Below, one piece after another: positions 14,323 to 35,934 of a DNA stretch of 64,000 bases (position 1 is the stretch's first letter; every line of letters begins with the position of its first letter). Where the stretch lies: positions 1,922,001 to 1,986,000 of the forward strand of contig NC_008709.1 of assembly GCF_000015285.1 (NCBI RefSeq). The letters run 5' to 3'. The notes below the pieces were generated by a model. That model had not been told where the DNA came from, searched no databases, and worked only from the letters and a program-made list of their open reading frames with translations. Position numbers and translations under genes: made by a program. The DNA is from Psychromonas ingrahamii 37 (GTDB lineage Bacteria; Pseudomonadota; Gammaproteobacteria; Enterobacterales; Psychromonadaceae).

Positions 14323-14349
14323 AGTCGGCTTTTAGTATTTTTAAAGCCT

Positions 14350-14367
14350 ATAGGTGGTGGGATGGGG
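14350..14367 (+). other. attL: Left attachment-site copy (ssrA 3'-end remnant)
   Basis: ATAGGTGGTGGGATGGGG matches ATAGGTGGTGGAGATGGGG at the 3' end of the tmRNA gene (35916-35934) in the same orientation, with a single missing base, and TCGAAC follows in both. The match includes bases just past the mature tmRNA end. This is what is expected of the far border of an element integrated into ssrA. Confidence 0.65.
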
Positions 14368-14429
14368 TAACTCGAACAGGGTCTGTAACAATCTGAATTT
14401 ATTGTTAAATTGTTGGTTTAAATTTTCAG

Positions 14430-14450
14430 TGGAATACCTTATGGAATACC
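14430..14450 (+). promoter_or_regulatory. Paired TGGAATACC boxes, putative integrase arm sites (left)
   Basis: TGGAATACC occurs twice as a direct repeat separated by TTA. The same 21-base arrangement recurs at 35787-35807 beside the integrase gene. Short direct repeats inside both ends of an element are typical arm-type binding sites of tyrosine integrases. Confidence 0.55.
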
Positions 14451-14578
14451 ATTGTTTTTTTTAGAGCGGAAATAGTTAAATTTTCAACCATAATAATTCA
14501 AATCGAATCCGCGCTTCCGCCTCTGTGAAGTGGCTCAATTAGGCTAAGTTATATTGCCCGTTTAACTTGAGGTTTCGC

Positions 14579-14645
14579 AAGGCGGTTTGTGCTCATTTGC
14601 GAGTTAGGAAGCTGTCTCGCTTTCGCCCCCAAGCGACTTACAAAA
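14579..14645 (-). repeat. Dispersed hairpin repeat, inverted copy
   Basis: Read on the minus strand it starts TTTTGTAAGTCG and ends CACAAACCGCCTT, matching parts of both plus-strand copies at 2964-2998 and 5021-5084. It abuts the IS1595 transposase remnant and may have replaced its N-terminal part. Confidence 0.5.
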
Positions 14646-15205
14646 TTAAAAATAGGTAATCACTATTTATCAGGTCTTGTTGAAGTTGATGAAATTTTAA
14701 TTGGTGGTGTTGTGCCTAGGAAAAGCATTAAAAATCATAGTGGTAAAAGTAAGGCAGTCGTTCTCGTAGCGGTAGAACTACTTGAACCTAAAGGTTTTGG
14801 GCGGATTCGTTTAAGACATTTTTCTGCGGCAAAAAAAGATAATATTGAATAGTTCATTATTGATGTAGTGAAACCCAGAAGTGTTATTTATAGTGATGGT
14901 TCTCCGGTATATAACCGTGCTAAAGAAAATGGATTTGCTCATCATAAACTGTTCATTTGGGCTCTGACATTGCGGCACATTTAACAATGCCAGGTGTTCA
15001 TAGGGTCGCTTCATTATTAAAAAGATGGCTTTTAGGGGCATATCAAGGAGCGATACAAGAAAAACAGTTAGAGTATTATCTTAATGAATATACTTTTAGC
15101 TTTAATCGCAGGAAAGCAAAATCAAGGGGACTGCTATTCTATCGACTGCTTGAGCAGGCCGTCATAACTGCTCCGCTAACTTATGACGATATAAAAACAC
15201 GATAA
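14646..15205 (+). pseudogene. IS1595-family (ISXO2-like) transposase, broken
   Basis: Pieces of an ISXO2-like DDE transposase appear in order but in different frames. The first is SGLVEVDEILIGGVVPRK with the first catalytic aspartate region. The next is SVIYSDGSPVYNRAKENGF around the second. The C-terminal block is PGVHRVASLLKRWLLGAYQG followed by EYYLNEYTFSFNRRKAKSRG. The N-terminal zinc-ribbon and helix-turn-helix part is absent, an in-frame stop lies at about 14850, and a frameshift lies near 14960. It cannot make a transposase. The hairpin repeat lies exactly at its truncated 5' end. Confidence 0.85.
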
Positions 15206-15432
15206 GCACTACATGTAGTGGCTGGTCGGTCTAAGTGGATAGCCCTTATTTATATGCAGTTATAATTATTTTGATCCATTTACAAATAATTACATATGCT
15301 ATTCAACTGTTTTATTGCGTGTTCTGGTCTAATCTTTAACAATAAAAAAAATTAAACGTGTGTTATTAAGAATGCAGACTAATACACTGTTAGCCCACCC
15401 CGGTAGCCCTCAAATATTTAAAAGGAGTTGTT

Positions 15433-16050
15433 ATGAAAGTTTTCACTAGTGTTCTTTGTTTGTTTGGTTTAATTACAGTGCTTACTGGTTGTGCCACGCC
15501 CGGCCCCCTCGTGAATAGCAGCATCACACCCGAAGTAAGAAATGCTATTGCTTATTGTAGTGCGGGCATAGCGTCGGAAACAGGTCTGAAAATTGAAGCG
15601 GCCATTGTTGAAAATGGAGGGAAGATTGATACTGTTCTACATGACAAAATTACAGGTGTTTTTGCAAGTATACCTGGTGTTACGGAAGCTAACGCTGTTG
15701 CTTCGCAAAAGCTGTACATGGATTGCCTCGACAAAAAAACATCACAAGAGAAAACATCTTCAATTGAAGCTTGCCATGCAAAATTGGCATGTGAAATAGA
15801 CACCATGCAACAGTTCTGCAATTGCAGAACCATTATTACCGAAATGACCATTGAAAAGGGGTATTCTGATTCGTTTGGGGACAAGATGCTAAAAGAGCGG
15901 TGTTACTCTGGACAGTACGATCTAAGGGAATGTTGGAATGGCGAAGATGTAAATATGGCGCGTGCATCCTGCACAGTTTTATTGCAAAGTAATGGGCGTG
16001 AGCTGCCAAAGGCAATGACGGGAACATGCCTGACCAAGCAAAAAGACTAA
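15433..16050 (+). CDS. Cysteine-rich predicted lipoprotein, unknown function
   Basis: This 205-residue protein has a lipoprotein signal peptide ending in the lipobox LTGC (Cys20), so it should be exported and lipid-anchored. The mature part has about a dozen cysteines (CHAKLAC, FCNCRT, RCYSGQ, ECWNGE, ASCTV), implying disulfides in the periplasm or at the surface. I do not recognise a family. The ribosome site AAAAGGAG sits six bases before the ATG. It is the first intact gene inside the left end of the island and has no operon partner. An upstream AT-rich region of about 220 bases could hold its promoter. Function: unknown cargo. Confidence 0.65.
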   Translation: MKVFTSVLCLFGLITVLTGCATPGPLVNSSITPEVRNAIAYCSAGIASETGLKIEAAIVENGGKIDTVLHDKITGVFASIPGVTEANAVASQKLYMDCLDKKTSQEKTSSIEACHAKLACEIDTMQQFCNCRTIITEMTIEKGYSDSFGDKMLKERCYSGQYDLRECWNGEDVNMARASCTVLLQSNGRELPKAMTGTCLTKQKD

Positions 16051-16213
16051 CCCGACATTCAACCCGGACTCCGCAAAAGCGCGTAACCAATTAATTTTAC
16101 GTTATAAATCAATTGAAACTAATATACATATGAATATTTTTCAAATTATTAAGTCGTTAGGAACGCTGTTGTTTGAAATAGCTATGTGGTTTTATTTTTG
16201 ACCTAAAACCCTA

Positions 16214-17284: not shown

Positions 17285-18046
17285 TCATTCGATTGGCCCA
17301 TCTAATTTCATAATCTCGTAATATACTTCATCAATTTTTGGTTTGTTCGCAGCTATTTCCCGATTTAATTTATCAATTTGCAGTTCGAACTTGTTTGTTA
17401 ATATGATGGCTCTTTCTGTATCAGCTTTCATTTTTTCTTGCTTAAGCAGCGACATCTCTAATGATTCGATACGTGCTATTTGGTTGTCCTCATGAATATA
17501 AAATTTGTCATGCATAATCTGTAAATTGTTCTTTTTCGCGGCTGTAATATCATCTTTTAGGTCTGAATCGATTTGCTTAACAATAACCATCGTGTGTAAT
17601 AGTTGTATACGCACCAAATTAAGCTCATCACTTAATGATGCTGTTGAAGCAGATAAGTATCGTCGGACATCTTCATTCGTGCAGAGGAATGTACTGTAAT
17701 GGCCAAATTTTCGTGCATTTTGATTACCAAGTGACGCTACTCGTTTCTGTGGTGGCGGTTTTTTCAAGAGGGCAGTGTTTGCAAAAGTATCACTTTTATT
17801 TTTGTTAACCGATTGAATTTTATGCTTATAACTTTTTGGAACTGTTGTTTTGCGAGTGCATTTGTCATTTTGTGCTGCGCGTAGTTTGCGCACTCTGTAC
17901 TGCGTATTTTTTTCATTTACTTTGATATGTCGTCGCGCGCTAGCGTAATTAATATTTGTCTGTTTACACCAAGCTTTGACAGATATTTCGTTACGAGCAT
18001 GCTCATTTATAAAACGCTGAGTTAATGCTTCCCAATCAGTTAACAT
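17285..18046 (-). CDS. Phage terminase small subunit-like protein
   Basis: The 253-residue protein begins with a helix-turn-helix-like segment (WEALTQRFINEHARNEISVKAW, then NYASARRHI), as in the DNA-recognition domain of small terminase subunits. A basic linker and GNQNARKFGHYSTFL follow, a motif that closely resembles the GNQNA-x-K-x-G-x-Y element common in those proteins. The C-terminal half is strongly helical with coiled-coil character (SLEMSLLKQEKMKADTERA), suitable for oligomer formation. No large terminase subunit or other packaging gene is nearby, so it is an orphan phage-type gene in the island, either a relic or one with a changed role. The ribosome site is weak. Assignment rests on motif resemblance only. 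Confidence 0.5.
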   Translation of the reverse strand: MLTDWEALTQRFINEHARNEISVKAWCKQTNINYASARRHIKVNEKNTQYRVRKLRAAQNDKCTRKTTVPKSYKHKIQSVNKNKSDTFANTALLKKPPPQKRVASLGNQNARKFGHYSTFLCTNEDVRRYLSASTASLSDELNLVRIQLLHTMVIVKQIDSDLKDDITAAKKNNLQIMHDKFYIHEDNQIARIESLEMSLLKQEKMKADTERAIILTNKFELQIDKLNREIAANKPKIDEVYYEIMKLDGPIE

Positions 18047-18497: not shown

Positions 18498-20969
18498 ATG
18501 AAACATTTAATAAATAGAAAAAATTCTCACGATGAAAAAATTAACACTTATTTCATGTACTGGGGAAAGGCAAAGAGCGAGTCACAGGCAACGGGTGCTG
18601 ATTATCATTTATTACCCTATCATTGCTTAGATGTGACGGCGGTAGCTGATGTGTGGCTAGAGGAATCTAATATTCTACTGTCGCAAATATCTTGTTATTT
18701 GGACACAACTCAAGATCAGGCAAAACGAATTTGCTTGTTTTTTATCCTACTCCACGATTTAGGAAAGTTTGATGCGCGCTTTCAAAACTTCCGTGAAGAT
18801 ATTCGTCAAATATTACAAGGTGATGATTGGGAAATTGAACCAGATCCAACCTATTACTCGCATGGCTCTTGCGGTTATCGGCAATTTAGTGAGATGTTCG
18901 ATACTAATGAAGCGATGAAAGCAGTGGCGGGGCATCACGGTTCTTGTGATACCTCTCAGCCCTACCATGATCCAGATGCGGATGACGAGCTGCTAGAGCT
19001 AGATGAACAAGCTAGAAAGGAATGGGTTGAGTTCAGTCTTGACTTTTGTCAGTTAAAAGAAGTTCCCGATGTCGGTGATATTCCCATGTTGGCCGGTTTG
19101 TGCAGTGTTGCTGATTGGGTGGGGTCATCCATCACTAATTTCACAACTGATCCATCTATTAATTTACAGCAGTATTATCAAGACACTTTACTTCGAGCAA
19201 GAAAAGCACTCGTCGATACAGGCATGATTGAAAAATCACAGGGAGCGGGGTTTGCTTATTTATTTAACGGGTATCGTCCTCGGGGCATTCAAACATTATT
19301 GAGTGAGATGCCATTAAAAGCGGGACTGACCTTAGTCGAGTCGGATACCGGATCAGGTAAAACAGAATTTGCGTTAGCTTATGCGTCCTCTCTTATTGAA
19401 GCTGGGCTTGCAGATGGAGTGGTATTTGGTTTACCCACACAGGCAACCGCCAATGGTCTATTTTCTCGCGTGGGAGATGCTGCAAAGAAATTATTTCCTG
19501 ATACAAAAACGACACTTGCGCATGGTAAATCTAAATATTTGATGTCAGATGAAAGCGGTTTTTTACAGCAATCAAATAAACGCGCTTTCTTAGGCTCAAT
19601 GTCAGTGGCAACCATAGATCAAATTCTGATGGGCGTGCTGGGTATTCGCCATCAATTTGTCCGTTCATTTGGTACGCGAAAATCTGTGTTGGTGCTCGAC
19701 GAAATTCACAGTTTTGATGCCTATATGTTGGGCCTTATCGAACAAGTTTTAAAAGGGCAGCATCAAGCCTATTCAAGTGTGATTTTACTTTCCGCCACAT
19801 TGCCTAATACGCTAAAAGAAAAACTACTCTCAACTTACAAAGGAAAATCGCTTAATAATGCGTATCCGCTTGTTAGCCATACTGACTTATTCGCTACTAC
19901 CCAAGAATTTACCTTGCCTAAGCAAGCAACTAACAAAACGATCACTTTAAAAACATGGTGTAGCGATGATCTCTTACCCAGTATTAATCAGCGAAAAAAG
20001 ATGATTGATTGGGTATCTCAGGGCGCTATGGTTGGGGTTATTTGCAATACAGTAAAAGATGCACAGCGGTTATATCACCAGATTAAAATAGCAAATCCAG
20101 AACTGAAAATAGAATTGTTTCATGCGCGTTTTACCTTTGGCGACAGGAAAAAACGAGAAGATCAGGTGCTTAAAAATTATGACAAAAATGCTAAACGCAC
20201 GGGACGACTGCTTATTGCCACTCAAGTAATAGAACAATCACTTGATTTAGATTTTGATGTGCTAATCAGTCAAATTGCACCTATTGAATTTTTGATGCAG
20301 CGCATGGGCCGATTATGGCGGCATGAGCGTATAGACAGTGGTTTATGTCCGCGGGCAAGTTGTATTAAAGCACCTTTATTTATCACTTTATTACCCAATG
20401 AGAAAATAACAGATCTGACATCGAGTGAGCAATTAAAGCATCATTACCAAGGCAGCGGATATGTTTATCAAAATAGCCGCTTACTTTATCGCACTGAGCA
20501 ATATCTAAATCAACATCCATTGTTACATTTTCCTGATTGCTACCGAGAGGCGATAAATTATGTTCACGAGGAACAATCTTACTCGGAGGAGCCACAAGTT
20601 TTAACTTCCGTGGCAGATGAATACAGTATTATAGCTGATGGTAGTAACTATACCGCTCGTTCTTTAAGCAAACTGCAGTCAAAGCCACTTAATGATGTTG
20701 ATCCGCGCTGCGCATTGTTAACCCGAGATGGTGAAATGAGTGCCACTGTAGTGCTATTTAAGGAAGACGGTAGTTTATTACACGGTGGGGATTTTAATGA
20801 GCAGCAAGACCGAGAAAACAGCACAGTCGCATTGGCAAAAAAACATGCCAAAGGGATAAAGGACGAACGCTATTACTGCTATAAGGCGGTAGTGGACAAA
20901 GATATTATTTATAACGAGATGGGGTTTATAACGACCGATCTCATCGATGAATTAACAGCAGGGAGTTAA
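18498..20969 (+). CDS. cas3: CRISPR-associated helicase/nuclease Cas3 (type I-E)
   Basis: This 823-residue protein carries an N-terminal HD nuclease: HCLDVTAVADVW near residue 48, LLHDLGKFDARF with the HD pair, SHGSCGY, and AGHHGS near 149. The superfamily-2 helicase follows, with motif I ESDTGSGKTEFALAY, motif II VLDEIHSFDAY, motif III LLSATLP, motif V LIATQVIEQSLDLD and motif VI QRMGRLWRH. A short C-terminal region ends the protein. Cas3 is recruited by Cascade after R-loop formation and degrades the target strand in the 3' to 5' direction. ATG 18498 has GGAG five bases upstream. The length is close to I-E Cas3 proteins, and all catalytic motifs look intact. It is the first gene of the operon; cas6e starts two bases after its stop. 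Confidence 0.97.
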   Translation: MKHLINRKNSHDEKINTYFMYWGKAKSESQATGADYHLLPYHCLDVTAVADVWLEESNILLSQISCYLDTTQDQAKRICLFFILLHDLGKFDARFQNFREDIRQILQGDDWEIEPDPTYYSHGSCGYRQFSEMFDTNEAMKAVAGHHGSCDTSQPYHDPDADDELLELDEQARKEWVEFSLDFCQLKEVPDVGDIPMLAGLCSVADWVGSSITNFTTDPSINLQQYYQDTLLRARKALVDTGMIEKSQGAGFAYLFNGYRPRGIQTLLSEMPLKAGLTLVESDTGSGKTEFALAYASSLIEAGLADGVVFGLPTQATANGLFSRVGDAAKKLFPDTKTTLAHGKSKYLMSDESGFLQQSNKRAFLGSMSVATIDQILMGVLGIRHQFVRSFGTRKSVLVLDEIHSFDAYMLGLIEQVLKGQHQAYSSVILLSATLPNTLKEKLLSTYKGKSLNNAYPLVSHTDLFATTQEFTLPKQATNKTITLKTWCSDDLLPSINQRKKMIDWVSQGAMVGVICNTVKDAQRLYHQIKIANPELKIELFHARFTFGDRKKREDQVLKNYDKNAKRTGRLLIATQVIEQSLDLDFDVLISQIAPIEFLMQRMGRLWRHERIDSGLCPRASCIKAPLFITLLPNEKITDLTSSEQLKHHYQGSGYVYQNSRLLYRTEQYLNQHPLLHFPDCYREAINYVHEEQSYSEEPQVLTSVADEYSIIADGSNYTARSLSKLQSKPLNDVDPRCALLTRDGEMSATVVLFKEDGSLLHGGDFNEQQDRENSTVALAKKHAKGIKDERYYCYKAVVDKDIIYNEMGFITTDLIDELTAGS

Positions 20970-20971
20970 CT

Positions 20972-21514
20972 ATGTATTTATCACAGGTGATGCTCAACAC
21001 GCATGACATTTATGAGCAGCATCAAGCTATTTGGAGTTTGTTTGAGAATGTAGCAGATCGTAAGCGTGATCACTTATTTCGGGTTGAGGTCGCGGATCGG
21101 CAATCGTGTAAAGTTTTGTTGCAATCAAGCACTGAGCCTAAAAGCAGCGAACAAGCCAAGGTGTTAGCCAGTAAGTCATTTTTGGCTGAGATTAAGCAAG
21201 ATGCATTTTATAAATTCAAGCTGCTGGCTTACCCGACAAAGTGTTTAAGCCAAGGTAAAAAAGTAATAGAAATAAAAGAGGCTAATGAACAGGTACAGTG
21301 GCTACAGCGAAAGCTTAGTGGTGCCAATGTTACTGTGACAGCCATGGATGACCTCATGGTGCGCAGTAAAAAGTCATATAACAGCCGCTTCGTCTGCTTT
21401 GAAGGTATTTTACAAGTAACAGATAGTGAACAAATACAGCGTGCATTAGTGATGGGAATTGGCCGTAAAAAACATGCGGGAGCAGGTTTGCTATCACTTG
21501 CCCGCACACAATAG
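20972..21514 (+). CDS. cas6e: Cas6e (CasE/Cse3) crRNA-processing endoribonuclease
   Basis: The 180-residue protein starts MYLSQVMLNTHDIYEQHQAIW, aligning with the E. coli CasE N-terminus; the histidine at residue 17 matches the catalytic His20 of that enzyme. The C-terminal glycine-rich loop GIGRKKHAGAGLLSLA is the family's RNA-binding signature. It cleaves pre-crRNA at the base of the repeat hairpin and stays bound to the 3' handle in Cascade. Position is unusual: it directly follows cas3 with a 2-base gap, whereas in the standard I-E operon it comes after cas5e. It is slightly short compared with E. coli (199 residues) but has all landmarks. Confidence 0.93.
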   Translation: MYLSQVMLNTHDIYEQHQAIWSLFENVADRKRDHLFRVEVADRQSCKVLLQSSTEPKSSEQAKVLASKSFLAEIKQDAFYKFKLLAYPTKCLSQGKKVIEIKEANEQVQWLQRKLSGANVTVTAMDDLMVRSKKSYNSRFVCFEGILQVTDSEQIQRALVMGIGRKKHAGAGLLSLARTQ

Positions 21515-21523
21515 GGAGAAGGT

Positions 21524-21955
21524 ATGTATCAAAGAATATATCAAGCTTATCAGTTACTAAGTAATGGTGATAAGGCAGATTTGAAACGCTGCAATTTAAA
21601 GAAATTGGCCGATTCCCCCGCCTATTTTCGAGTGTTAAAATTCAGCAGAGCGAAAGATACACCGCAAACACAGCGTATTTTGTATTTATTGGTTGGCCTT
21701 AAAATGAGTGATGATCAGCCAGGCGTGAATGTTGCCAATGCATTATTAAATGCGGGTGTAAAAGAGGCGCAAATCATTCAAATCACGCGTAGTGGTGATA
21801 ACGGCATTGATTACTTAAAACGCCAGCTAGTACGCTGTGAAAATATTAAGCTTGAAAGTATCGGCAAGTTAGCTCAATTTTGGGGTGACAATGCCCGCCG
21901 TAATCTATTAAAAAACTTCATTTTATCAGCTAACGATACACAAACCGCTAGCTAA
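21524..21955 (+). CDS. cse2: Cse2 (CasB/Cas11e) Cascade small subunit
   Basis: This 143-residue helical protein has the Cse2 pattern: an N-terminal RIYQAYQLLSNGDKADLKR followed by LADSPAYFRVL, and a C-terminal basic helix pair (LIRCEN-like, FWGDNARRNLLKNFIL). Two copies form the belly of Cascade and stabilise the displaced DNA strand. The ribosome site GGGAGAAGG lies immediately upstream of ATG 21524, just after the cas6e stop. It is a little shorter than the E. coli protein (160 residues). Presence of Cse2 together with Cas6e and Cse1 fixes the system as subtype I-E. Confidence 0.9.
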   Translation: MYQRIYQAYQLLSNGDKADLKRCNLKKLADSPAYFRVLKFSRAKDTPQTQRILYLLVGLKMSDDQPGVNVANALLNAGVKEAQIIQITRSGDNGIDYLKRQLVRCENIKLESIGKLAQFWGDNARRNLLKNFILSANDTQTAS

Positions 21956-21987
21956 CCATTATCAAATTAATCCAAAGGATATTTTCC

Positions 21988-23001
21988 ATGACAACGTTTA
22001 TTAATATTCATACCCTTATTTCTCATCCATCATCGATGATGAATCGTGATGATTCAGGCATGCAAAAAACCGCTGTTTTTGGTGGTAGTGTACGCAGTCG
22101 TATTTCCAGCCAATGTTTAAAGCGTGCTATTCGCCAAAGCGATATTTATGGAGAAGCAGTTGCTGAAAAGTCTATTCGTACCAATAAGTTTGATGAATTG
22201 TTAGATCTATGCAAAGAAGCAATGCCTGAAACTGATATTAAACTAATTGAAGATGTGTTGTTAAACATGGGTTCGAAAGTAACTAAAGATAAGAAAACTG
22301 AGATACGCAATTTCGATGCTGTTCAACCTTATGCAATAGGCTCAATACGTGAAGCCATTAATATGGTGAATGAAGGAACTGAATTAAAAGATCTTAAAAA
22401 AATTGTGCAAATCCCAACCATTGATGTGGCGTTGTCAGGTCGGATGGATGCTAGCTGCCCACCGCGAAATGTTGAAGCGGCAATGAGTGTGGCACACAGC
22501 TTAACCACGCACAGCGCGGATATTGAAGTAGATTGGTTTACCGCCTGTGATGATTTAGCAGAGCAAGGCTCCGGACATATAGGGACAACGGAATTCAGCT
22601 CGGGCGTATTTTATCGTTATGCGTCAATCAATGTTGATTTATTGGCAAAAAATGTTAAATCCACTGTGAGTGAAGTAACACCCATTATTAATACTATGAT
22701 CCGCTGTTTTGCTCAGGTATCACCTAGCGCCAAGCAAAAAGTATTTGCAGCCTACAATCAAGCTGATTTTGTGATGGCCACACATTCCAACCAGCCGATT
22801 TCCCTTGCCAATGCATTTAGAAAACCGATTGAAAATAATGGTGATGTGATGGAAAACTCGATCGCTGCGTTAGTGAAACATTATGAAAAGCTCACCAATG
22901 CTTATGAGCTTGACTCAAAAGCGATAGCACTCGATTTAACCGATAGTGCGCAAAGTAAACAAATCAATTTGGTTAACAAAATCAGTGATATTCGTTTTTA
23001 A
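21988..23001 (+). CDS. cas7e: Cas7e (CasC/Cse4) Cascade backbone subunit
   Basis: The 337-residue protein opens FINIHTLISHPSSMMNRDD and continues MQKTAVFGGSVRSRISSQCL, almost collinear with E. coli CasC. RISSQ-x-LKRA is the family hallmark. Six copies form the helical backbone that holds the crRNA spacer. ATG 21988 has AAAGGA about nine bases upstream. A 32-base gap separates it from cse2, and cas5e begins 20 bases after its stop. No truncation is visible; it is about 25 residues shorter than E. coli Cas7e. Confidence 0.96.
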   Translation: MTTFINIHTLISHPSSMMNRDDSGMQKTAVFGGSVRSRISSQCLKRAIRQSDIYGEAVAEKSIRTNKFDELLDLCKEAMPETDIKLIEDVLLNMGSKVTKDKKTEIRNFDAVQPYAIGSIREAINMVNEGTELKDLKKIVQIPTIDVALSGRMDASCPPRNVEAAMSVAHSLTTHSADIEVDWFTACDDLAEQGSGHIGTTEFSSGVFYRYASINVDLLAKNVKSTVSEVTPIINTMIRCFAQVSPSAKQKVFAAYNQADFVMATHSNQPISLANAFRKPIENNGDVMENSIAALVKHYEKLTNAYELDSKAIALDLTDSAQSKQINLVNKISDIRF

Positions 23002-23021
23002 GTTTGCATAGGATACGTGTG

Positions 23022-25128: not shown

Positions 25129-25182
25129 CAAAGAGAATACCTTATCGAAGGGGTATTGCCATTAACATAAGGAGGTTGAAAG

Positions 25183-26100: not shown

Positions 26101-26409
<309 letters not shown>

Positions 26410-26486
26410 ACAAAATTTGCTCTTTAAAAATCGGTAATTATTGAAGTACTCTATTTATCCTTACAAAACAATGATATATACTTAGA
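26410..26486 (+). promoter_or_regulatory. CRISPR leader
   Basis: This 77-base AT-rich stretch lies between cas2 and the first repeat. It is placed on the leader side because the repeats here are perfect while those at the opposite end are degenerate. It should contain the array promoter and an IHF-type bend site. CAAAACAATGATATATA just before repeat 1 is a candidate but was not proven. Confidence 0.75.
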
Positions 26487-29262
26487 GTGTTCCCCGTGCC
26501 CACGGGGATGAACCGGTTATAGATTGGCGGGGGGATTCTAGGGACACGTGTTCCCCGTGCCCACGGGGATGAACCGACAAATTTTGTGCGGCTTGACCTG
26601 CTTTGCGGGTGTTCCCCGTGCCCACGGGGATGAACCGTAAAATCACAGAGTCATGGTTCGCTGGTCCTCGTGTTCCCCGTGCCCACGGGGATGAACCTCG
26701 CGTTGCCGCCGTAAAAATGGTTATCATAGTGTGTTCCCCGTGCCCACGGGGATGAACCGCCTTTTAACTTCGCTCTGTGTTCTGGATTGGTGTGTTCCCC
26801 GTGCCCACGGGGATGAACCGTGATGATTGGCTTGATATTTTGGCACGTTGGCGTGTTCCCCGTGCCCACGGGGATGAACCGTTAATGCAAGGCCACAACG
26901 TTTTTGGATCATGGTGTTCCCCGTGCCCACGGGGATGAACCGCCTTATTAGTTATTTAATTAATATATTTAATAGTGTTCCCCGTGCCCACGGGGATGAA
27001 CCGCTTAGAGCGCGGAATGTATTAGAAAGTAAAAAGTGTTCCCCGTGCCCACGGGGATGAACCGTGCAATCTATCGAATCTATGAACACTGAAGCAGTGT
27101 TCCCCGTGCCCACGGGGATGAACCGCTCTTTCTGCCTTGGCAAGTTCTGCTAATTCTGTGTTCCCCGTGCCCACGGGGATGAACCGCTTATGTGATGCTT
27201 TCCAGTAATCGCCTAATAGTGTTCCCCGTGCCCACGGGGATGAACCGCATGAAATATATGAGAGAAAATCCGCCAAATCGTGTTCCCCGTGCCCACGGGG
27301 ATGAACCGTTGCGAACAGTTGAAGATTATCAGCTATCAAAGTGTTCCCCGTGCCCACGGGGATGAACCGGGTAATAATAGTTTTTTTAGTTCAAACTGTT
27401 GGTGTTCCCCGTGCCCACGGGGATGAACCGGTGATCATTTCAAATGGCACTACATCACCACTGTGTTCCCCGTGCCCACGGGGATGAACCGTGCAGACAT
27501 AAAATCATGTGGTTGTGGTAATGGTGTTCCCCGTGCCCACGGGGATGAACCGCGCGATATTTATTAATCTTTTGTATTGAAAAGGTGTTCCCCGTGCCCA
27601 CGGGGATGAACCGCATGAACACGCACTATTGATGATTATAGCACCGTGTTCCCCGTGCCCACGGGGATGAACCGCTGGCTATACACTGTAAACGTTATGC
27701 AAAAATGTGTTCCCCGTGCCCACGGGGATGAACCGCAATATAACTATTAAAAACCAATCCCAATCATGTGTTCCCCGTGCCCACGGGGATGAACCGCGTA
27801 AAATGTTCCGGTTTAATTGCTACATTAGAGTGTTCCCCGTGCCCACGGGGATGAACCGTGCCATTTTAGGCGCTCTAACGCTGCCGCTTTGTGTTCCCCG
27901 TGCCCACGGGGATGAACCGCAAGCGTGCCTGATTTGAATATTGATCAGACAGTGTTCCCCGTGCCCACGGGGATGAACCGCGTTCATTCCGCGATACACG
28001 CGCCTTACGATAGTGTTCCCCGTGCCCACGGGGATGAACCGCTCTTGTGACCAAGGCACTATCGCCATGCACAGTGTTCCCCGTGCCCACGGGGATGAAC
28101 CGCCTCACCCAGATGAACATAACCAAACTGATTGTGTGTTCCCCGTGCCCACGGGGATGAACCGTGATACTTGGTGCGGTAATCCGTAAAACTCAAGTGT
28201 TCCCCGTGCCCACGGGGATGAACCGTAGCAGAAATAGCAGCGTAGGCAATGGATTTTGTGTTCCCCGTGCCCACGGGGATGAACCGCTTTCAAGTCAGAT
28301 CAGCCGCTTAGTTTCCCGGTGTTCCCCGTGCCCACGGGGATGAACCGTCAGATTGTATTTTGTGAGCGTGTGCAACTGTGTGTTCCCCGTGCCCACGGGG
28401 ATGAACCGCAAAACAATTAGCAGTGATATGTTTATATAATGTGTTCCCCGTGCCCACGGGGATGAACCGTAAATTACAAGCCGCCAGGATGGCCTGAGAC
28501 TGTGTTCCCCGTGCCCACGGGGATGAACCGGAGCAAAAACAGAACCCGCATTTTAACGAGGTGTGTTCCCCGTGCCCACGGGGATGAACCGGTATTGAGT
28601 TAGCAACCTGGCGAATGATGAGAGTGTTCCCCGTGCCCACGGGGATGAACCGCCAATAACTTGATCATGGTTTTGAGCGTGTATGTGTTCCCCGTGCCCA
28701 CGGGGATGAACCGCAAGTACAACCTGATTAAGTTTAGCGACTCTGGTGTTCCCCGTGCCCACGGGGATGAACCGCGGTAAAGACAACAGTAATAAATCGC
28801 TGTTAAGTGTTCCCCGTGCCCACGGGGATGAACCGTATTAAGCCATAAATTAGCAGTGGCAAATAAAGTGTTCCCCGTGCCCACGGGGATGAACCGGTTC
28901 TCGAAAAGCTAGCAATTTGACTTAAATCGTGTTCCCCGTGCCCACGGGGATGAACCGCAATGACAAATTAAACGTAAAAGTAGTGCACCGTGTTCCCCGT
29001 GCCCACGGGGATGAACCGCAGATTGATGTTAATGCAATAACTGAAGATAAGTGTTCCCCGTGCCCACGGGGATGAACCGCAGCCGACCATGGGCGATAGG
29101 AAAATATCTGGGTGTTCCCCGTGCCCACGGGGATGAACCGATAGGATTATGTATCAAAGATCATCAGCAGCAGTGTTCCCCGTGCCTACGGGGATGAACC
29201 GCTTCAGTCACACTGCACTGTTCCGTGTTGTGAGTGTTCCCCGTACTCACGGGGATGAACCA
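26487..29262 (+). CRISPR. Type I-E CRISPR array, 46 repeats and 45 spacers
   Basis: The repeat is 29 bases (GTGTTCCCCGTG...ACGGGGATGAACCG) with the palindrome CCCCGTG/CACGGGG, close to the E. coli I-E repeat. Repeat starts step by 61 bases from 26487 to 29234. Two spacers (27797-27829 and 28103-28135) are 33 bases and the rest are 32. Nearly all repeats are identical. Repeat 4 (26670) differs at its last base, repeat 45 (29173) has one C to T change, and repeat 46 (29234) has several changes, so the leader-distal end is the right end. The spacers appear unique. Transcription is expected on the plus strand from the leader. Confidence 0.99.
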
Positions 29263-29277
29263 TTATAATATAATGCT

Positions 29278-29847
29278 TCAATTTTTATTCCAATAACGCT
29301 TAACTGTTGCTATCGACAAGCCTGTTGCTTTAGACGCTTTACTTTGGCTAATTCCTGTTGCTTTCGCATCTTGCACCGTTTCTATGGTGTTAATCGCGAC
29401 GGGGCGGCCTAATTTTTTACCTTCTGCTTTTGCACGCGCAAGGCCTTCATTGGTGCGTTCGATGATTCGATTACGTTCAAACTCGGCAAATGCTGAGAAC
29501 ATTTGCAGCATTAACTTTCCTTCTGGGCTTGATAGATCTGCAACGGGTAAGTCTAAGCAAATAACCTTTATTCCTTTACCGGTTAAGTTTTGAATTGTTT
29601 GTTGTACATTAATGTTGTCACGGCCAAGACGGTCAAGTTTGAGAACAATTAACGTATCGCCTGATTCAAGTTTGTTATCAACCAGGTTTTTAAACTCAGC
29701 ACGTTTTTCTGTCGGGGTTGAGCCTGAACAAGTTTCGGTGATCACACGTTGTGCTTCGACACTATACCCTGCATTGCTAATTGCTAAGATTTGATTTTCA
29801 GTTGTTTGCTCTGTTGTCGAAACGCGGCAATATGCAAAAGTTCTCAT
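29278..29847 (-). CDS. Serine recombinase (resolvase/invertase family)
   Basis: This 189-residue protein has a complete resolvase catalytic domain: FAYCRVSTTEQTTENQ with the active serine at residue 9, LIVLKLDRLGRD with the arginine motif, and FSAFAEFERNRIIERTNEGL. A C-terminal helix-turn-helix follows (GISQSKASKATGLSIATVKRYW). Such enzymes resolve cointegrates or invert DNA. The ATG at 29847 is preferred over an upstream extension lacking family similarity. The gene points towards the CRISPR array and its stop lies 16 bases from the last repeat. A perfect inverted repeat just upstream of its start (29876-29998) is a likely recombination site. Confidence 0.88.
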   Translation of the reverse strand: MRTFAYCRVSTTEQTTENQILAISNAGYSVEAQRVITETCSGSTPTEKRAEFKNLVDNKLESGDTLIVLKLDRLGRDNINVQQTIQNLTGKGIKVICLDLPVADLSSPEGKLMLQMFSAFAEFERNRIIERTNEGLARAKAEGKKLGRPVAINTIETVQDAKATGISQSKASKATGLSIATVKRYWNKN

Positions 29848-29875
29848 AAATCTATTCCATCTGTTTTTGTTTACT

Positions 29876-29998
29876 ACTGGTATCAACAAACGTAATCATA
29901 AATGATTGTTGGCATCAAAAAAGCCTGATACCGTTTAATGATACTCATTTCAGTGCGTGATTAATGATGTCATTTAACGAGTGTTTGTTGATACCAGT
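29876..29998. repeat. Inverted repeat, candidate res site of the serine recombinase
   Basis: ACTGGTATCAACAAAC (29876-29891) and its exact complement GTTTGTTGATACCAGT (29983-29998) bound a 123-base segment. Related partial copies, such as ATTGTTGGCATCA, lie between them. Resolvase sites are made of several such imperfect dyads next to the recombinase gene, which is the position here. The right arm also covers the stop of the next minus-strand gene. Confidence 0.6.
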
Positions 29999-30849
29999 CA
30001 GCTGAGTGTTTTTTTCTTGCGTTTCATGGCTGGAGCGAACACTCTCTCAAGGCTATATCCTCTACCAATCCTAGTCCTAACAGTTACAATATTAAGCCCA
30101 TACCTCTCCGCATGTTCTTTTACGGTCAGGAATTGTCCATCATACTCAAGGCGCTTGGAGTGTTTGTTATAAATCCGTTGATCTCCCACTGGTAGTAGTA
30201 ATGCCTCTTTAATGCTCCAACCTTGGTTCAGTCGATACCTAACGGTGGCTTCTCCTTGCCCGTATTTTTCAGCCATTCGATATAATGACAAGGTTTCACC
30301 TTCGAAGGTGATTTGGATAGTTCTGCAAGTGTTAAATGCTTGAGTATTTGCATCTGCCCAGCGACAATTTTCAGGACAGTAATTGCCATTGGAATCTATT
30401 CTATCCAGTGACATTCCTTCAGGCCTTTGGCCCATATCTTCATAAAACGCCAGGAAATCACCAACCCATCTATCACAAATTTTAATACCTTTGCCACCAT
30501 ATATGTTCCAATGGATACCCTTAGGATTTGAGCACCTTTCTTTCATCCCTCGCCATGACTGATATTCAGGCGTGCCCACCATGCCATGCGTTTTATTTCT
30601 CGCTGCTGTGACTTCTGATTTTTGGCACCCGCACGACTTAACTTTATGGTAAACCAAACTTGAAGTAGATTTGATTGTTGTATGACCGCATGTACAAACA
30701 CACTTCCATTGATGTCGCCGGCTTTTCTTACCTGTTTTTTTGTTCGTTACAACCTCACATCCAGCATACTCAAGAACAGTTAACCTTTCTGTCTTGTAAC
30801 CGATTAAATTGTGGCTGCAGGAGTTAATTTCTTCTTTAATTATTGACAT
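29998..30849 (-). CDS. Phage-type HNH/AP2-like protein
   Basis: The 283-residue protein has a zinc-finger-like N-terminal module (KCVCTCGHTT, KSCGCQKS), then the block WRGMKERCSNPKGIHWNIYG and GMSLDRIDSNGNYCPENCRW. This arrangement is common in phage and prophage proteins annotated as HNH endonucleases or AP2-domain DNA-binding proteins. Two similar C-terminal repeats (LSLYRMAEKYGQGEATVRYR and LTVKEHAERYGLNIVTVRTR) look like DNA-binding intron-endonuclease repeats. It probably acts on phage-type DNA, perhaps as a homing nuclease. Of two close ATGs, the one at 30849 has AGGA at eight bases. It is the upstream neighbour of the recombinase on the same strand, separated by the inverted repeat. 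Confidence 0.65.
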   Translation of the reverse strand: MSIIKEEINSCSHNLIGYKTERLTVLEYAGCEVVTNKKTGKKSRRHQWKCVCTCGHTTIKSTSSLVYHKVKSCGCQKSEVTAARNKTHGMVGTPEYQSWRGMKERCSNPKGIHWNIYGGKGIKICDRWVGDFLAFYEDMGQRPEGMSLDRIDSNGNYCPENCRWADANTQAFNTCRTIQITFEGETLSLYRMAEKYGQGEATVRYRLNQGWSIKEALLLPVGDQRIYNKHSKRLEYDGQFLTVKEHAERYGLNIVTVRTRIGRGYSLERVFAPAMKRKKKTLS

Positions 30850-30991
30850 AGACATATTCCTTTATGATTGTTAATTATAAAATAATGTTAATTTATCAAG
30901 CATATAGATGAACTCAGTTGTAATAATTTAAATGCTGCTGTTTGGTTACAAACCAATATCGATGAGTAATATGCTCACCGTAATATTTTGG

Positions 30992-31573
30992 TTATGTTGG
31001 TTTAGGCCTAATTCGGCTTGTGCCATAATCATTTGCCCGTGCAGTGTTTTTATCCTTTGTCCATACCTTGGCTTGATAAGATAATCGCTCAATCGCTTCC
31101 GCTTTGTTTATTTCCGTATCTCTTTTAATGTTGTAGTAACAATTTTCCAGCCCGTGTAAGTGACCACCTAGCGTGACTTCATCCCACATTAATTTTATTT
31201 TATGAAATAGCCTTATTGGATTTTGTATTTTTGAACCATCTACAATTATTGCCATGTGATAATGCTGTCTTGGCGACGTGTTCTGTTCCCGGCACCATGC
31301 ATAACCTAATCGTTTGATTTTATAATGTTGTTTAAAATGGAAACGTAATTTACTGATGAATGCCGCGATGTATTTATTGTCTAAGCTAAAGTCAGCAACA
31401 TGTAAATCGAACACATAGACAAACACCCGACTATGCCAACTGATCATATTTTCCACCTGTTCAATTATTTTTCCCATTTGGTGGGTAAATATAGGTTTAC
31501 CCCTGTCACAGTTAACTTTATATATTTTTCCTTTAGTCCTATAAACAGGACTTTCACTTTTATATTTAGCCAT
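30992..31573 (-). CDS. Inovirus Gp2 / YagK-YfjJ-type protein (replication-initiator-like)
   Basis: This 193-residue protein resembles the YagK/YfjJ C-terminal (inovirus Gp2) family found in P4-like satellites and filamentous-phage-related elements. It contains YVFDLHVADFS, a histidine pair in RQHYHMAIIVDG like the HUH motif of rolling-circle initiators, and tyrosines in the C-terminal part (ENCYYNIKRDTEI). A role in starting element replication is inferred from the family. Biochemical proof is not available from the sequence. The ribosome site is weak. It lies downstream of two AlpA-like regulator genes on the same strand, a typical satellite-element module. Confidence 0.65.
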   Translation of the reverse strand: MAKYKSESPVYRTKGKIYKVNCDRGKPIFTHQMGKIIEQVENMISWHSRVFVYVFDLHVADFSLDNKYIAAFISKLRFHFKQHYKIKRLGYAWCREQNTSPRQHYHMAIIVDGSKIQNPIRLFHKIKLMWDEVTLGGHLHGLENCYYNIKRDTEINKAEAIERLSYQAKVWTKDKNTARANDYGTSRIRPKPT

Positions 31574-31754: not shown

Positions 31755-31762
31755 CTCATGCA

Positions 31763-31936
31763 TTAACCCTGTTCTTTTTTATTAAGCCATTGTTGGACGG
31801 CTTCCTCGTTCCAACCTAATGTCCTTCCGTTATAAAGTAAGGGCTCAGGGAAAATGCCCTTTTTCCACCAACGGAATAGTGTTCCACGAGAACGGCCTAC
31901 AATTTTTGTTACTTCATCTGTAGTTAATAATTTCAT
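31763..31936 (-). CDS. AlpA/MerR-type small DNA-binding protein (57 residues)
   Basis: This short gene reads MKLLTTDEVTKIVGRSRGTL, then FRWWKKGIFPEP and GWNEEAVQQWLNKKEQG, which is the complete winged-helix fold of AlpA-family regulators and excisionases. The ATG overlaps the stop of the preceding AlpA-like gene (TGATG), so the two are translationally coupled. AlpA proteins in P4-like islands switch on the integrase or act as recombination directionality factors, which suggests control of excision of this island. The tryptophan pattern is typical. No truncation is seen. Confidence 0.8.
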   Translation of the reverse strand: MKLLTTDEVTKIVGRSRGTLFRWWKKGIFPEPLLYNGRTLGWNEEAVQQWLNKKEQG

Positions 31937-32175
31937 CAGCAATTCTCACTATTTTTTTTCGCTTCAATCTGTTGATCGCGTTCTTCAATGCGTTCATTAA
32001 TCCAATCCAAAATTTCGATTTCTACCCAGCCGACTGCGCGGCCACAGCCACTACTGAGGTTAATACTCATGGGAAAATCATCTGTGGCCATTTTTTTATA
32101 GATTGTTGCCCGCGCGAGCCCTGTCATATCCTTTACTTCTGGTAAGCGAATAATTTTTTTAGATTTGGTCGTCAT
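31936..32175 (-). CDS. AlpA-family transcriptional regulator (79 residues)
   Basis: The sequence IIRLPEVKDMTGLARATIYK, FPMSINLSSGCGRAVGWVEI and EILDWINERIEERD is the classic AlpA family pattern seen in P4-type islands. An AAGGAG eight bases before ATG 32175 is a strong ribosome site. It overlaps the second, smaller AlpA-like gene by one base. In known elements AlpA raises integrase or excisionase expression. Here the pair could control the integrase at 34483-35733. A palindromic site lies 77 bases upstream of its start and may be its operator. Confidence 0.88.
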   Translation of the reverse strand: MTTKSKKIIRLPEVKDMTGLARATIYKKMATDDFPMSINLSSGCGRAVGWVEIEILDWINERIEERDQQIEAKKNSENC

Positions 32176-32251
32176 CACTGCATCTCCTTGATAGGTAATC
32201 GACTTAATAGGTAATCGATTTTTTTGAGCTTACGGAGATTTTTTTGCATAC

Positions 32252-32448: not shown

Positions 32449-33432
32449 ATGAGTAACGCGATGAATAAAGATAAACTACAAGCACTTGCGAATGAGTTAG
32501 CTAAAGACATTAAACGCCAGATGATCTCAGTCAGTTAAGCGCTATGCTCACTAAGCTGACGGTTGAAGCTGCTTTAAAATCAGAAATGGACGAACAAATC
32601 CTAAGGTTGTATGCAAAAGGCATGAGTACTCGCGATATTGTTGCTGCTTTCCTAGAAATGTATGGTGATGAAATATCGCCAGGCTTAGTCTCTCAAGTAA
32701 CCAATACCGTGATAGAGAAAGTTGTCGAATAGCAAAGCAGACCTTTAGATGCAGTGTATCCAATCGTATATATGGACTGTGTTTTTTAAAAATTCGTCAA
32801 GATAAAGGGGTGATCAACAAAGCAATTTACCTTGCACTCGGCATAAATATTGAAGGCCATAAAGAATTATTAGGTATGTGGATTTCTGAAAATAAAGGCG
32901 CTAAATCCTGGCTTTCAGTGCTGACGGATTAAAGGGTTTCCCAGAAGCCATTAATGCAACGTTCACATATGCAAAGATCCAGCTCTGCATTGTTCATCTG
33001 GCCCGTCATTCGTTAAAGTTTGTGCCTCGGAAAGATTACAAGCAAGTAACCAGTGACTTAAATCGAATATATCAGTCTGTAAAAGAAGCTAAATTAGAGC
33101 TCGAACATTTCAGTGACAAGTGGGATGATAAATACCCTCAAATAAGCCGTTCTTGGCGTGTTAACTGGGAAAATTTAAACACACTTTACGATTATCCCGC
33201 CGATATTCGTAAAGTAATTTATACAACGAACGCGATTGAATCATTAAATAGTGTCATTAGAAAATCGGTTAAAACGAGAAAAGTATTTTCGAGCGATGAT
33301 GCTGCATTTAAAGTTGCCTATTTGGCAATTCAAGCAGCTTCTAAAAAGTGGACGATGCCAATAAGGGATTGGAAACTAGCTTTAAATCGTTTTATAATTA
33401 AATTTGAGGAGCAGTTAGCTCCCCATATCTAA
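32449..33432 (+). pseudogene. IS256-family transposase, broken
   Basis: Fragments of an IS256 (mutator-type) transposase occur in order. They are MNKDKLQALANELAKDIKRQ, then MLTKLTVEAALKSEMDEQIL, the LYAKGMSTRDIVAAFLEMYG block, a zone with several stops and frameshifts, and the C-terminal DYPADIRKVIYTTNAIESLN and SVIRKSVKTRKVF. Missing bases in the first third and stops at 32536, 32730 and about 32930 make it inactive. The last 136 codons are an open frame but lack a catalytic core and a ribosome site. Confidence 0.88.
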
Positions 33433-33470
33433 CGGGCATTTACACAGTTTTTTTACACCCTCAAACTTAG

Positions 33471-34394
33471 TTATAAGCGTTCTTTCCCAGCTTTTATCAT
33501 TCGATAAAGCGTTTTTGCAGACATTTTTGGTGCTTTTAATAGTTTAAAAGCAAAGTCTTTTTCGAGTAACTCCATTGCTGCACTAGGTTCATTGAATAAT
33601 TCATCAGCGAATGGACAGTAAGCATCGAGAATCTGTACCAGTAGAGTGCTTGCTTGTATTGAAGGGGATCTGGGGTTTCGTTCTTTTAATTCGTTTAATT
33701 CGTTTAATTCTTTAAGTGGCATTTTATTTCCATCTAACTTTACCAGCTCTTCTCCCCCATCTAAATGGGCATGTAACCTTTGCATATCATCATAACTTAT
33801 TCGGATATCTTGAACCGCAACATCAACGGCAAACCCGCCTAAATAAGCACCATGTATTTTATCAACTTCATAATGGTATAAACCTTCAGGCATATAGGGG
33901 ACGACATTAATTAATATCGGAGTTTCAGATGAGTGAGTAATAAGCTCTTTAATTTCATCCAAGGGTTCTATTTCCCATAATCCCTTGATCCAACAATAAA
34001 GTATTTCACCCATCCTGCCATTTTCATCCATATTGAAAAAGCTGACTTGGATTTTTGAATGGTAGGTTCCAAATATACGGTTCAATGGGCAATTGTCTAA
34101 ATCTTCTCCATCTGAATTTTCTGGATGAAACCCAAATTCATCTTCAACGGTGTTTGTGTCTAATTCGTCTCTTTTTAACCACTGCTTATTAGCTTCCGTT
34201 GTATCAATGTCAGTACTAACAAATACTGCTGAGTGTGACTGATAAGGGTGGAAATCAACAAACAATACGCATGCTCGTATTTTGCGATCGACTATTAATT
34301 TTATTAGGAATTCTTCTGAAGTTTCCAATACTTTTGCGGCATCACTTATACTATATTCCCGCTTTTGGATTTGAGGGCGATTTTTTTTATTCAC
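33471..34394 (-). CDS. Hypothetical island protein (307 residues)
   Basis: I do not recognise this protein. The N-terminus, REYSISDAAKVLETSEEFLI, resembles a MerR/AlpA-like helix-turn-helix start, followed by a beta-rich middle (IQVSFFNMDENGRMGEILYC and nearby). A run of KELNELNELKERN from a short DNA triplicate and a helical C-terminus (MELLEKDFAFKLLKAPKM then SAKTLYRMIKAG) end the protein. The end looks like a second DNA-binding helix pair. There is no signal peptide or membrane helix, so it is cytoplasmic. It sits beside the integrase gene on the same strand, a common cargo or regulator slot in ssrA islands. Confidence 0.6.
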   Translation of the reverse strand: MNKKNRPQIQKREYSISDAAKVLETSEEFLIKLIVDRKIRACVLFVDFHPYQSHSAVFVSTDIDTTEANKQWLKRDELDTNTVEDEFGFHPENSDGEDLDNCPLNRIFGTYHSKIQVSFFNMDENGRMGEILYCWIKGLWEIEPLDEIKELITHSSETPILINVVPYMPEGLYHYEVDKIHGAYLGGFAVDVAVQDIRISYDDMQRLHAHLDGGEELVKLDGNKMPLKELNELNELKERNPRSPSIQASTLLVQILDAYCPFADELFNEPSAAMELLEKDFAFKLLKAPKMSAKTLYRMIKAGKERL

Positions 34395-34482
34395 ACTATT
34401 ACCTTAATTGTTGCGTAATTATAATTAACGTATGCAATTGTAAGCATTAATCGTTTGTTATTTCCCGTAAGCGAATAGGTGA

Positions 34483-35733
34483 CTAGAAGTTGTCACCTAT
34501 TACTTTTAAGCTTTTAAACCCAGTAACAGACAGGTTTCCCTGTGATGCTTTTTCAATATGCTCGCTCCACCAGTACATCATTGGTCTTCTGCGTTCCAGA
34601 TAATCAGTCCGGTTATAAGCATTACGCACTTGATTATCACCGACATGTGCCAGAGCTGCTTCCACTAGGTCAGCTTCAAAGCCTTGTTCATTAAGTGTGG
34701 TACTGGCGATTGAACGTAATCCATGACTCACTAAACGGCCACCAAAATTCATGCGTCTTAAAGCAGTATTGGCCGTTTCGCTATTAGCATGAGTTCTTGG
34801 GTTGCGGTCTGATGGGAAAAGATATTCTCTATGTCCACTGATTGGACGCATCGTTTCAAGTAGTGTCAGAGCTTGATCCGTCAATGGCACCACATGTTCA
34901 CGGCGTTTCTTCATACGTTCAGGTGGAATAGTCCATGTTTTAGCTTCAATATCAATCTCTTCCCATTTTGCACCGGCACTTTCAGAAGGGCGGGTCATGG
35001 TATGAAGTTGCCATTCAATCAAGCAGCGTGTTGTTCTCTTGATGCTGGCATTGGCAATGGTCATCATCAATTCAGGCAGTTCGTCAGGTGTTAGGGCGAG
35101 CATGTGTGATTTTTTAGGTTTTTTGAAATTAGCTTTGATGCCACTTAACGGATTAGCAAAGATTAAACCGCCATTGACGGCGTAGGTCATAATTTCATTT
35201 AAACGTTGAGTAAGGCGTTTAACTGTTTCTAAGCTGCCTTTTGCTTCTATCGGCCTTAATAGATCGATGACCATTGGGGCTGTAACCGAGGATATGGGGG
35301 TGTTTTCAAGGAGGGGGAAGATATGACGATCTAAGGAGCGCCAAATATCAGTGGCATAATCAGCCGTTACTGAATGTTTTTTTAGTTCATACCATTCTAA
35401 TGCGACATTTTTCACTGTGTGTTCAGTGATTTTTTTATCTTCTGCTAATTTTTTTTCCCTGTTTTCTTTAGGGTCAATATCTTGTGCCAGAAGATCACGA
35501 TAACTCAATGCTTTTTTACGTGCATTAAGTAATGCAACACCTGGGTATTTACCAATATTAATATTAATACGTTTTTTTGTTTGTGGGTGTTTGTAGTTGA
35601 AGTTCCAGATTTTAGAACCATTAGATCTCACTCTTAGCTGTAATCCATCACCATCAGATAATACATAATCTTTATCGTGAATCTTTGCTGAGTTAATTTT
35701 CTTATCAGTTAGGGGAATTACTTTTACTGCCAT
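34483..35733 (-). CDS. int: P4-type tyrosine integrase of the ssrA island
   Basis: This 416-residue protein has the DUF4102 arm-binding N-terminus (LTDKKINSAKIHDKDYVLSD, GDGLQLRVRSNGSKIW), a core-binding middle and a catalytic domain. The catalytic arginine is in HTMTRPSESAGAKWEEI, the HxxR box is SHGLRSIAST, the last histidine is LAHVGDNQVRNAY and the nucleophile tyrosine is in NAYNRTDYLERRR. The gene begins 182 bases from the tmRNA 3' end and reads into the island, the standard layout for integrases that use ssrA. TGGAATACC boxes, probably its own arm sites, sit between the gene and ssrA. It appears intact. Confidence 0.95.
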   Translation of the reverse strand: MAVKVIPLTDKKINSAKIHDKDYVLSDGDGLQLRVRSNGSKIWNFNYKHPQTKKRININIGKYPGVALLNARKKALSYRDLLAQDIDPKENREKKLAEDKKITEHTVKNVALEWYELKKHSVTADYATDIWRSLDRHIFPLLENTPISSVTAPMVIDLLRPIEAKGSLETVKRLTQRLNEIMTYAVNGGLIFANPLSGIKANFKKPKKSHMLALTPDELPELMMTIANASIKRTTRCLIEWQLHTMTRPSESAGAKWEEIDIEAKTWTIPPERMKKRREHVVPLTDQALTLLETMRPISGHREYLFPSDRNPRTHANSETANTALRRMNFGGRLVSHGLRSIASTTLNEQGFEADLVEAALAHVGDNQVRNAYNRTDYLERRRPMMYWWSEHIEKASQGNLSVTGFKSLKVIGDNF

Positions 35734-35758
35734 GATTTACCTGCAAATAGCTAAGAAT

Positions 35759-35807
35759 GGTATTCCAAATTATAACAGGATTTATTTGGAATACCTTATG
35801 GAATACC
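35759..35807. promoter_or_regulatory. TGGAATACC boxes, putative integrase arm sites (right)
   Basis: One inverted box GGTATTCCA (35759-35767) is followed by two direct TGGAATACC boxes (35787-35795, 35799-35807) separated by TTA. The direct pair with the same TTA spacer is at 14430-14450 near the other border. They overlap the integrase promoter region, so integrase may repress itself. Confidence 0.6.
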
Positions 35808-35883
35808 ATTATTCGTAGCTGCTGGTAGACGCCTATAGGCACTAATAGACGATAAGTTGTTGATTTTACTATATTATAGACGA

Positions 35884-35913
35884 AAAAAAAGACGTCCTGA
35901 GACGTCTTTTTTT
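35884..35913. terminator. Bidirectional terminator next to ssrA 3' end
   Basis: A perfect 13-bp stem, AAAAAAAGACGTC/GACGTCTTTTTTT, with the loop CTGA. It works in principle on both strands and ends tmRNA transcription on the minus strand. Confidence 0.85.
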
Positions 35914-35915
35914 AG

Positions 35916-35934
35916 ATAGGTGGTGGAGATGGGG
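35916..35934 (+). other. attR: Right attachment-site copy within the ssrA 3' end
   Basis: ATAGGTGGTGGAGATGGGG covers the tmRNA 3' acceptor end and five bases beyond it. A copy lacking one base lies at 14350-14367 in direct orientation, and the 21.6 kb between is the predicted island. Confidence 0.65.

Follow-up and report, generated by a model that had tools for sequence, protein, structure and literature searches.

Comparison with Described Systems

Clustered regularly interspaced short palindromic repeats (CRISPR)-Cas systems carried by genomic islands have been described in Vibrio cholerae. The island GIVchS12 / VPI-6 holds a type I-F system and is excisable from the VPI-1 site (PMC5109276, PMC6360697), which lies downstream of the transfer-messenger RNA (tmRNA) locus (PMC7574455). 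In addition, GI-24 of classical V. cholerae bears a type I-E system and an integrase, and its excision was detected at a low rate (PMC6360697). In this study, 64,000 nucleotides of the chromosome of Psychromonas ingrahamii 37, a cold-sea bacterium (NC_008709.1, positions 1,922,001 to 1,986,000; the window, hereafter, is this whole stretch) were analyzed, and a complete type I-E locus was found within a 21.6-kb span (14350-35934) adjoining the tmRNA gene ssrA. The span is very probably a P4-integrase-type island in the 3' end of ssrA that carries the type I-E locus and has since decayed, being by now either fixed or only rarely excised.

The island resembled GIVchS12 / VPI-6 in that both are tyrosine-integrase islands downstream of tmRNA with CRISPR-Cas. 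It was different in that the V. cholerae island possesses a type I-F system with a type VI secretion module, whereas a type I-E system without such a module was present here. Moreover, the attachment (att) sites of GIVchS12 / VPI-6 are identical to those of VPI-1 and its excision was shown by PCR, while the left att site here had decayed. GI-24 likewise carries a variant-order type I-E locus on an integrase-bearing island, but it lies between VC0289 and VC0290 and not at tmRNA, and its order is cas3-cas8e-cse2-cas6-cas7-cas5-cas1-cas2, compared with cas3-cas6e-cas11-cas7-cas5-cas8e-cas1-cas2 here. The same order as here was found on plasmid pPBPR1 of Photobacterium profundum SS9 and in V. halioticoli NBRC 102217, with Cas8e 64-69% identical; those systems, described earlier as a plasmid-borne variant (PMC6360697), have no ssrA island. 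An earlier reading of the window from its sequence only (the sequence-only reading) regarded this setting as unusual for type I-E. That was overstated, as excisable islands with CRISPR-Cas, among them one at the tmRNA site of V. cholerae, had been published (PMC5109276, PMC6360697, PMC7574455). CRISPR-carrying islands are thus already known, and what is less ordinary is that these cas genes occur in the nearest relative as well, but at another genomic location. Neither CRISPR nor genomic islands are mentioned in the P. ingrahamii genome paper.

Structure of the Island Ends

The following features were located at the two ends:

35921-36274, minus strand: ssrA (tmRNA), intact, tag ANDSNYSLAA (ARAGORN)
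35916-35944, minus strand: attachment site in the ssrA 3' end
34483-35733, minus strand: P4-type tyrosine integrase, 416 amino acids (PF00589, PF22022, PF13356; NF007246)
35787-35813, plus strand: putative integrase arm-type site block, 96% identical to 14430-14456
14430-14456, plus strand: putative integrase arm-type site block, two tandem TGGAATACC, 96% identical to 35787-35813
14350-14377, minus strand: remnant of the left attachment site, a degenerate tmRNA 3'-end copy (local alignment with the 3' end of ssrA)
14280-14349, minus strand: terminator-like block just outside the left end, matching the DNA that immediately follows ssrA in the closest relative

At the right end, the tyrosine integrase gene adjoined the 3' end of the intact ssrA, with smpB following ssrA to the right of the island. 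The integrase itself was intact, its arm-binding, central and catalytic domains all being kept.

At the far border, a second copy of the ssrA 3' end was present. The alignment of 14350-14377 (ATAGGTGGTGG-GATGGGGtaAcTCGAAC) to the ssrA 3' end covered 29 columns with 3 mismatches and 1 gap and scored 36, strict identity being limited to 11 + 7 nucleotides. The second-best place for this query within 134 kb was a tRNA 3' end with a score of 26, and the best score in 60 Markov simulations of 64 kb was 29. The left copy is therefore real but degenerate: the direct tmRNA 3'-end copies claimed by the sequence-only reading stood above chance, but not as faithful copies. For comparison, the att remnant of an ssrA island in genome G016 keeps 26 of 26 nucleotides.

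Just inside both ends lay the two arm-type blocks, which form a 27-nucleotide direct repeat and carry the sequence TGGAATACCTTATGGAATACCATT. Nine TGGAATACC/GGTATTCCA 9-mers occurred within 134 kb, five of them at the two island ends. The sequence-only reading had not noted this repeat, which, with the MB-3u-54 junction described below, gives the ends firmer support than that reading could offer. These paired tandem-motif blocks look as integrase arm-type binding sites would, and the integrase presumably binds them.

Immediately left of 14350 and the terminator block, an integrase N-terminal remnant (MRYLTISKGGIWYFRFQLP) was found on the minus strand. Elsewhere in the same genome, a degenerate relative of the left junction (2623262-2623482, 71%) ran across the att sequence, and a relative of the ssrA-type terminator alone occurred at 1859224-1859313 (84%); neither place contains a tRNA or tmRNA gene. 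Further out, the window held two overlapping or adjacent minus-strand open reading frames (ORFs) at 12705-13453 with a repeated sequence of about 40% similarity (TDRPxRSxxxKxxDY...) and, on the other side of the island, seven tandem tRNA-Val(TAC) genes at 60968-62355.

The ssrA Site in Related Genomes

The nearest relative was Psychromonas sp. MB-3u-54 (G021). Its ssrA was 100% identical, with no integrase and no cas genes there, and ran directly into a block nearly identical to window 14280-14349 read leftwards (72 bp at 90% in the search; near-identical through att in the direct alignment). The native ssrA terminator was thus apparently displaced by the island to its far, left side. This junction, together with the finding that the two ends enclose the complete cas locus and its array, bears out the bounded island beside ssrA that had been proposed. 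The sequence-only reading had also called for comparison with an empty ssrA site. The ssrA of MB-3u-54 was indeed joined to the same terminator, but the match extended over about 70-100 bp only. In the 13.7-13.8 kb downstream of that ssrA, no match to the left flank of the window was found beyond about 72 bp, so that a clean empty site carrying the window's left flank was not found. Homologues of AttH (window 10303-11436) in G023 and G015 lay on contigs other than that of ssrA.

Among 23 Psychromonas genomes, several terminator types followed ssrA, in many cases with differing integrases and candidate arm motifs. This variety indicates that ssrA is an active insertion site in Psychromonas. Genomes G011 and G018 were close to the empty state: core-type genes began a short distance downstream of ssrA, and an integrase was absent. 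Downstream of ssrA in MB-3u-54 (L046), three near-identical fragments, assigned by inspection as phage-portal-like C-termini, were observed at 2454-2771, 12585-12866 and 12999-13340, which suggests repeated prophage insertion and loss.

Type I-E cas Locus and CRISPR Array

The complete type I-E set occupied 18498-26409. All eight cas genes were open and matched type I-E models:

18498-20969, plus strand: cas3 (HD nuclease-helicase, type I-E; type I-E models)
20972-21514, plus strand: cas6e, out of canonical position (TIGR01907)
21524-21955, plus strand: cas11e (cse2) (PADLOC Cas11e, E 5e-17)
21988-23001, plus strand: cas7e (TIGR01869; homologous to E. coli CasC, 4qyz)
23004-23675, plus strand: cas5e (TIGR01868)
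23662-25128, plus strand: cas8e (cse1), out of canonical position (NF007247; homologous to E. coli CasA, 4qyz)
25183-26100, plus strand: cas1e (TIGR03638)
26113-26409, plus strand: cas2e (TIGR01873)
26410-26486, plus strand: presumed leader, from cas2 to the first repeat (by position only)
26487-29262, plus strand: CRISPR array, 46 repeats of 29 nucleotides with 45 unique spacers of 32-33 nucleotides, last repeat degenerate

Compared with the canonical order cas3-cas8e-cas11-cas7-cas5-cas6e-cas1-cas2, cas6e and cas8e were exchanged; the canonical order is characteristic of the type, not defining, and variant type I-E orders have already been published (PMC6360697). The order found here occurred in every relative long enough to be compared, namely an uncultured Vibrio, Marisediminitalea, Cognaticolwellia, Methyloprofundus, a metagenome-assembled Hahellaceae genome and MB-3u-54, as well as in V. 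halioticoli and P. profundum pPBPR1. This distribution suggests that the variant circulates among marine gammaproteobacteria. Within Psychromonas, Cse1 was found in two of 24 genomes, at different loci.

As in any type I-E system, Cas6e would process the CRISPR RNA, Cascade would bind the target DNA, Cas3 would degrade it, and Cas1-Cas2 would add spacers. When the joined spacers were compared with phage records and the 24 Psychromonas genomes, weak matches only and no confident protospacer were obtained, and a search of IMG/VR with five spacers in which each sixth base was set to N gave no match. It is the structure of the array that points to an immune memory, because no confident protospacer was found.

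A WYL-domain protein was encoded directly upstream of cas3 in four of the relatives' loci (L012 3780-4760, L013 3890-4732, L014 3777-4697 and L020 3905-4738); no such gene was seen at that position in the window or in MB-3u-54. In addition, a KilA-N domain gene stood between cas8e and cas1 in Marisediminitalea (L013 11482-12309), and about 860 bp separated cas8e and cas1 in L020.

The Same cas Genes in Psychromonas sp. MB-3u-54

In MB-3u-54, the cas operon adjoined aroC, the 34 kb upstream of it contained no integrase, and the contig ended in the array. In P. ingrahamii, aroC was followed by an ordinary AsmA-like gene. The homology between the window and MB-3u-54 began inside cas3 and ended in the array, without a common flank, and no spacer was shared among the five complete spacers of MB-3u-54. 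The synonymous divergence of cas3, cas6e, cas11, cas5 and cas1 was 0.18-0.29, and that of seven genes beside ssrA was 0.15-0.41. The cas locus divergence fits inheritance from a shared ancestor and a subsequent relocation; it may also be that each genome acquired the locus on its own from close sources. The sequence-only reading proposed that the whole defence locus could move as one unit. The locus and array do lie between the island ends, but that view is complicated by the presence of the same cas genes elsewhere in MB-3u-54, at core-genome divergence.

The cas7 (8177-9337) and cas8e (10001-11518) genes of MB-3u-54 (L021) were compared with window 21988-25128. Residues 1-65 of Cas7e were identical and the last 193 were 96% identical, while the part between them showed 27-29% identity, and the MB-3u-54 protein had a 50-residue insertion in its middle. 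For Cas8e, residues 1-93 were 91% and residues 419-488 were 99% identical, with about 50% between. MB-3u-54 is likely the recombinant, with a donor outside the sampled relatives, because the Cas7e and Cas8e middles of the window still matched those of the uncultured Vibrio at 78-80% identity, whereas those of MB-3u-54 were equally far from all sampled relatives. It is tentatively proposed, as a possibility rather than an expectation, that a cas locus of the ancestor shared by two sister species was relocated within the genus (beside aroC in one, in an ssrA island in the other) and that the Cascade surfaces of MB-3u-54 were renewed by segmental exchange with distant versions (Cas7e 66 to about 150, Cas8e 95-418). 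Published anti-CRISPRs bind Cas7e and the protospacer adjacent motif (PAM) site of Cas8e (PMC12740422, PMC8887544). Such exchange would therefore be expected under anti-CRISPR pressure, which is our hypothesis for the exchanged segments; altered PAM choice is an alternative cause.

Other Genes of the Island

Besides the cas locus, the island contained the following genes and remnants:

14589-15205, plus strand: IS1595-type transposase remnant, interrupted (PF12762, weak match below cut-off)
17285-18046, minus strand: phage terminase small subunit-like ORF (phrog_370, E 1.3e-28)
29278-29889, minus strand: serine recombinase, DNA-invertase type (PF00239, phrog_125)
29998-30855, minus strand: HNH endonuclease-like protein (phrog_374, E 5.5e-63)
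30992-31573, minus strand: YfjJ/YagK-type Rep-like protein (PF11726)
31763-31936, minus strand: second small AlpA-like ORF, 58 amino acids (translation; assigned by inspection)
31936-32178, minus strand: AlpA-type regulator/excisionase (PF05930, E 3.9e-17)
33022-33432, plus strand: Mutator/IS256-type transposase fragment (PF00872 profile positions 266-377 only)
33471-34394, minus strand: 307-amino-acid protein with a weak N-terminal helix-turn-helix, beside the integrase, nearly private to the genome

The anatomy given by the sequence-only reading (intact ssrA, adjacent P4-type integrase, AlpA regulators, Rep-like gene, insertion sequence (IS) debris, and full cas operon with array) was confirmed throughout. 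The integrase at the ssrA 3' end, AlpA and a YfjJ-type gene are presumably shared with P4-type/CP4-57-like ssrA islands, CP4-57 being likened here by family names; the present island differs from these in its CRISPR-Cas cargo. The 307-amino-acid gene had matches in two of 395 related genomes, the sole other match being partial (41%, in G005). The nearest integrase (77%) lay on a 12-kb contig of G017 that held no other gene of the island, and none of 23 congeners was found to carry a second copy of the island. Among the island ORFs scanned, none was identified as a relaxase or conjugation gene, and nothing oriT-like was seen; the search was not exhaustive for small ORFs and oriT.

Origin and Present Mobility

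The 21.6-kb island would have been integrated at the ssrA 3' end by its own P4-type integrase, which originally moved it, with the AlpA proteins likely regulating the expression or direction of the integrase. Later, the left att site would have decayed while IS elements and older integrase debris accumulated. Some points weigh against this account. The left att site is imperfect; the left flank is common to MB-3u-54 over about 70-100 bp only, so that the island-less site there matches the surroundings of the insertion only in part; and the degenerate relative of the left junction at 2.62 Mb crosses att, so that the past of the left end may be more complicated. Since the match to MB-3u-54 is so limited and an integrase remnant lies left of the terminator block, the island was probably inserted at an ssrA site where debris of other elements was present beforehand or built up afterwards.

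It is quite possible that the site holds stacked insertions, with at least two ssrA elements, and that the cas locus joined separately, by IS-mediated or other recombination, and not with this integrase. The minus-strand integrase remnant just left of 14350 would fit such a history, as would the IS fragments flanking the cas module on both sides and the MB-3u-54 module beside aroC, where the homology runs from inside cas3 to the array without a common flank. On the other hand, the cas module was not found to be exactly bracketed by a target duplication or by a pair of IS elements, and it is enclosed in full by the two arm-site blocks.

A fully mobile island, precisely excised at two att copies with tmRNA restored and immunity moved between strains as a unit, is unlikely. 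The integrase is intact, AlpA is present, arm-site blocks are conserved at both ends, and comparable V. cholerae islands excise (PMC5109276, PMC6360697). However, the left att site has 3 mismatches and a deletion, while the G016 remnant is complete, and the IS debris, the missing relaxase and conjugation genes among the scanned ORFs, the single partial match to the 307-amino-acid gene and the lack of a second copy in the congeners all speak against mobility. For these reasons the earlier description of the island as apparently mobilisable was not upheld. Present-day excision is doubtful because the left att copy is imperfect, and the decayed att site and accumulated IS and integrase debris suggest that the island is probably fixed or excising rarely. 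The expectation that tmRNA would be restored on excision also has to be narrowed: an intact gene would result only from a crossover inside the identical 11-nucleotide ATAGGTGGTGG block covering the CCA end, which could still take place.

It is highly improbable that the left repeat arose by chance or from a tRNA and that the CRISPR locus is native to an ordinary part of the chromosome. The short length and imperfections of the att copy and a GC content close to the surroundings (0.408 in the stretch vs 0.394) would agree with such a reading, but the att score exceeded all simulations, no tRNA is present there, arm-site blocks stand at both ends, the orthologous junction in MB-3u-54 shows an ssrA-terminator context, and Cse1 occurs in only two of the 24 Psychromonas genomes, at different loci.

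Biological Meaning

The island in ssrA is an example, outside Vibrio and of type I-E, of adaptive immunity in a tmRNA-site island. Furthermore, it offers a portrait of an ageing island in which the integrase and arm sites are retained and the attachment site has decayed. The pair of P. ingrahamii and MB-3u-54 is a test case for how entire CRISPR loci, with core-like divergence, come to occupy new positions in members of one genus, and also for whether Cascade subunits are renewed by the swap of their exposed middle parts only.

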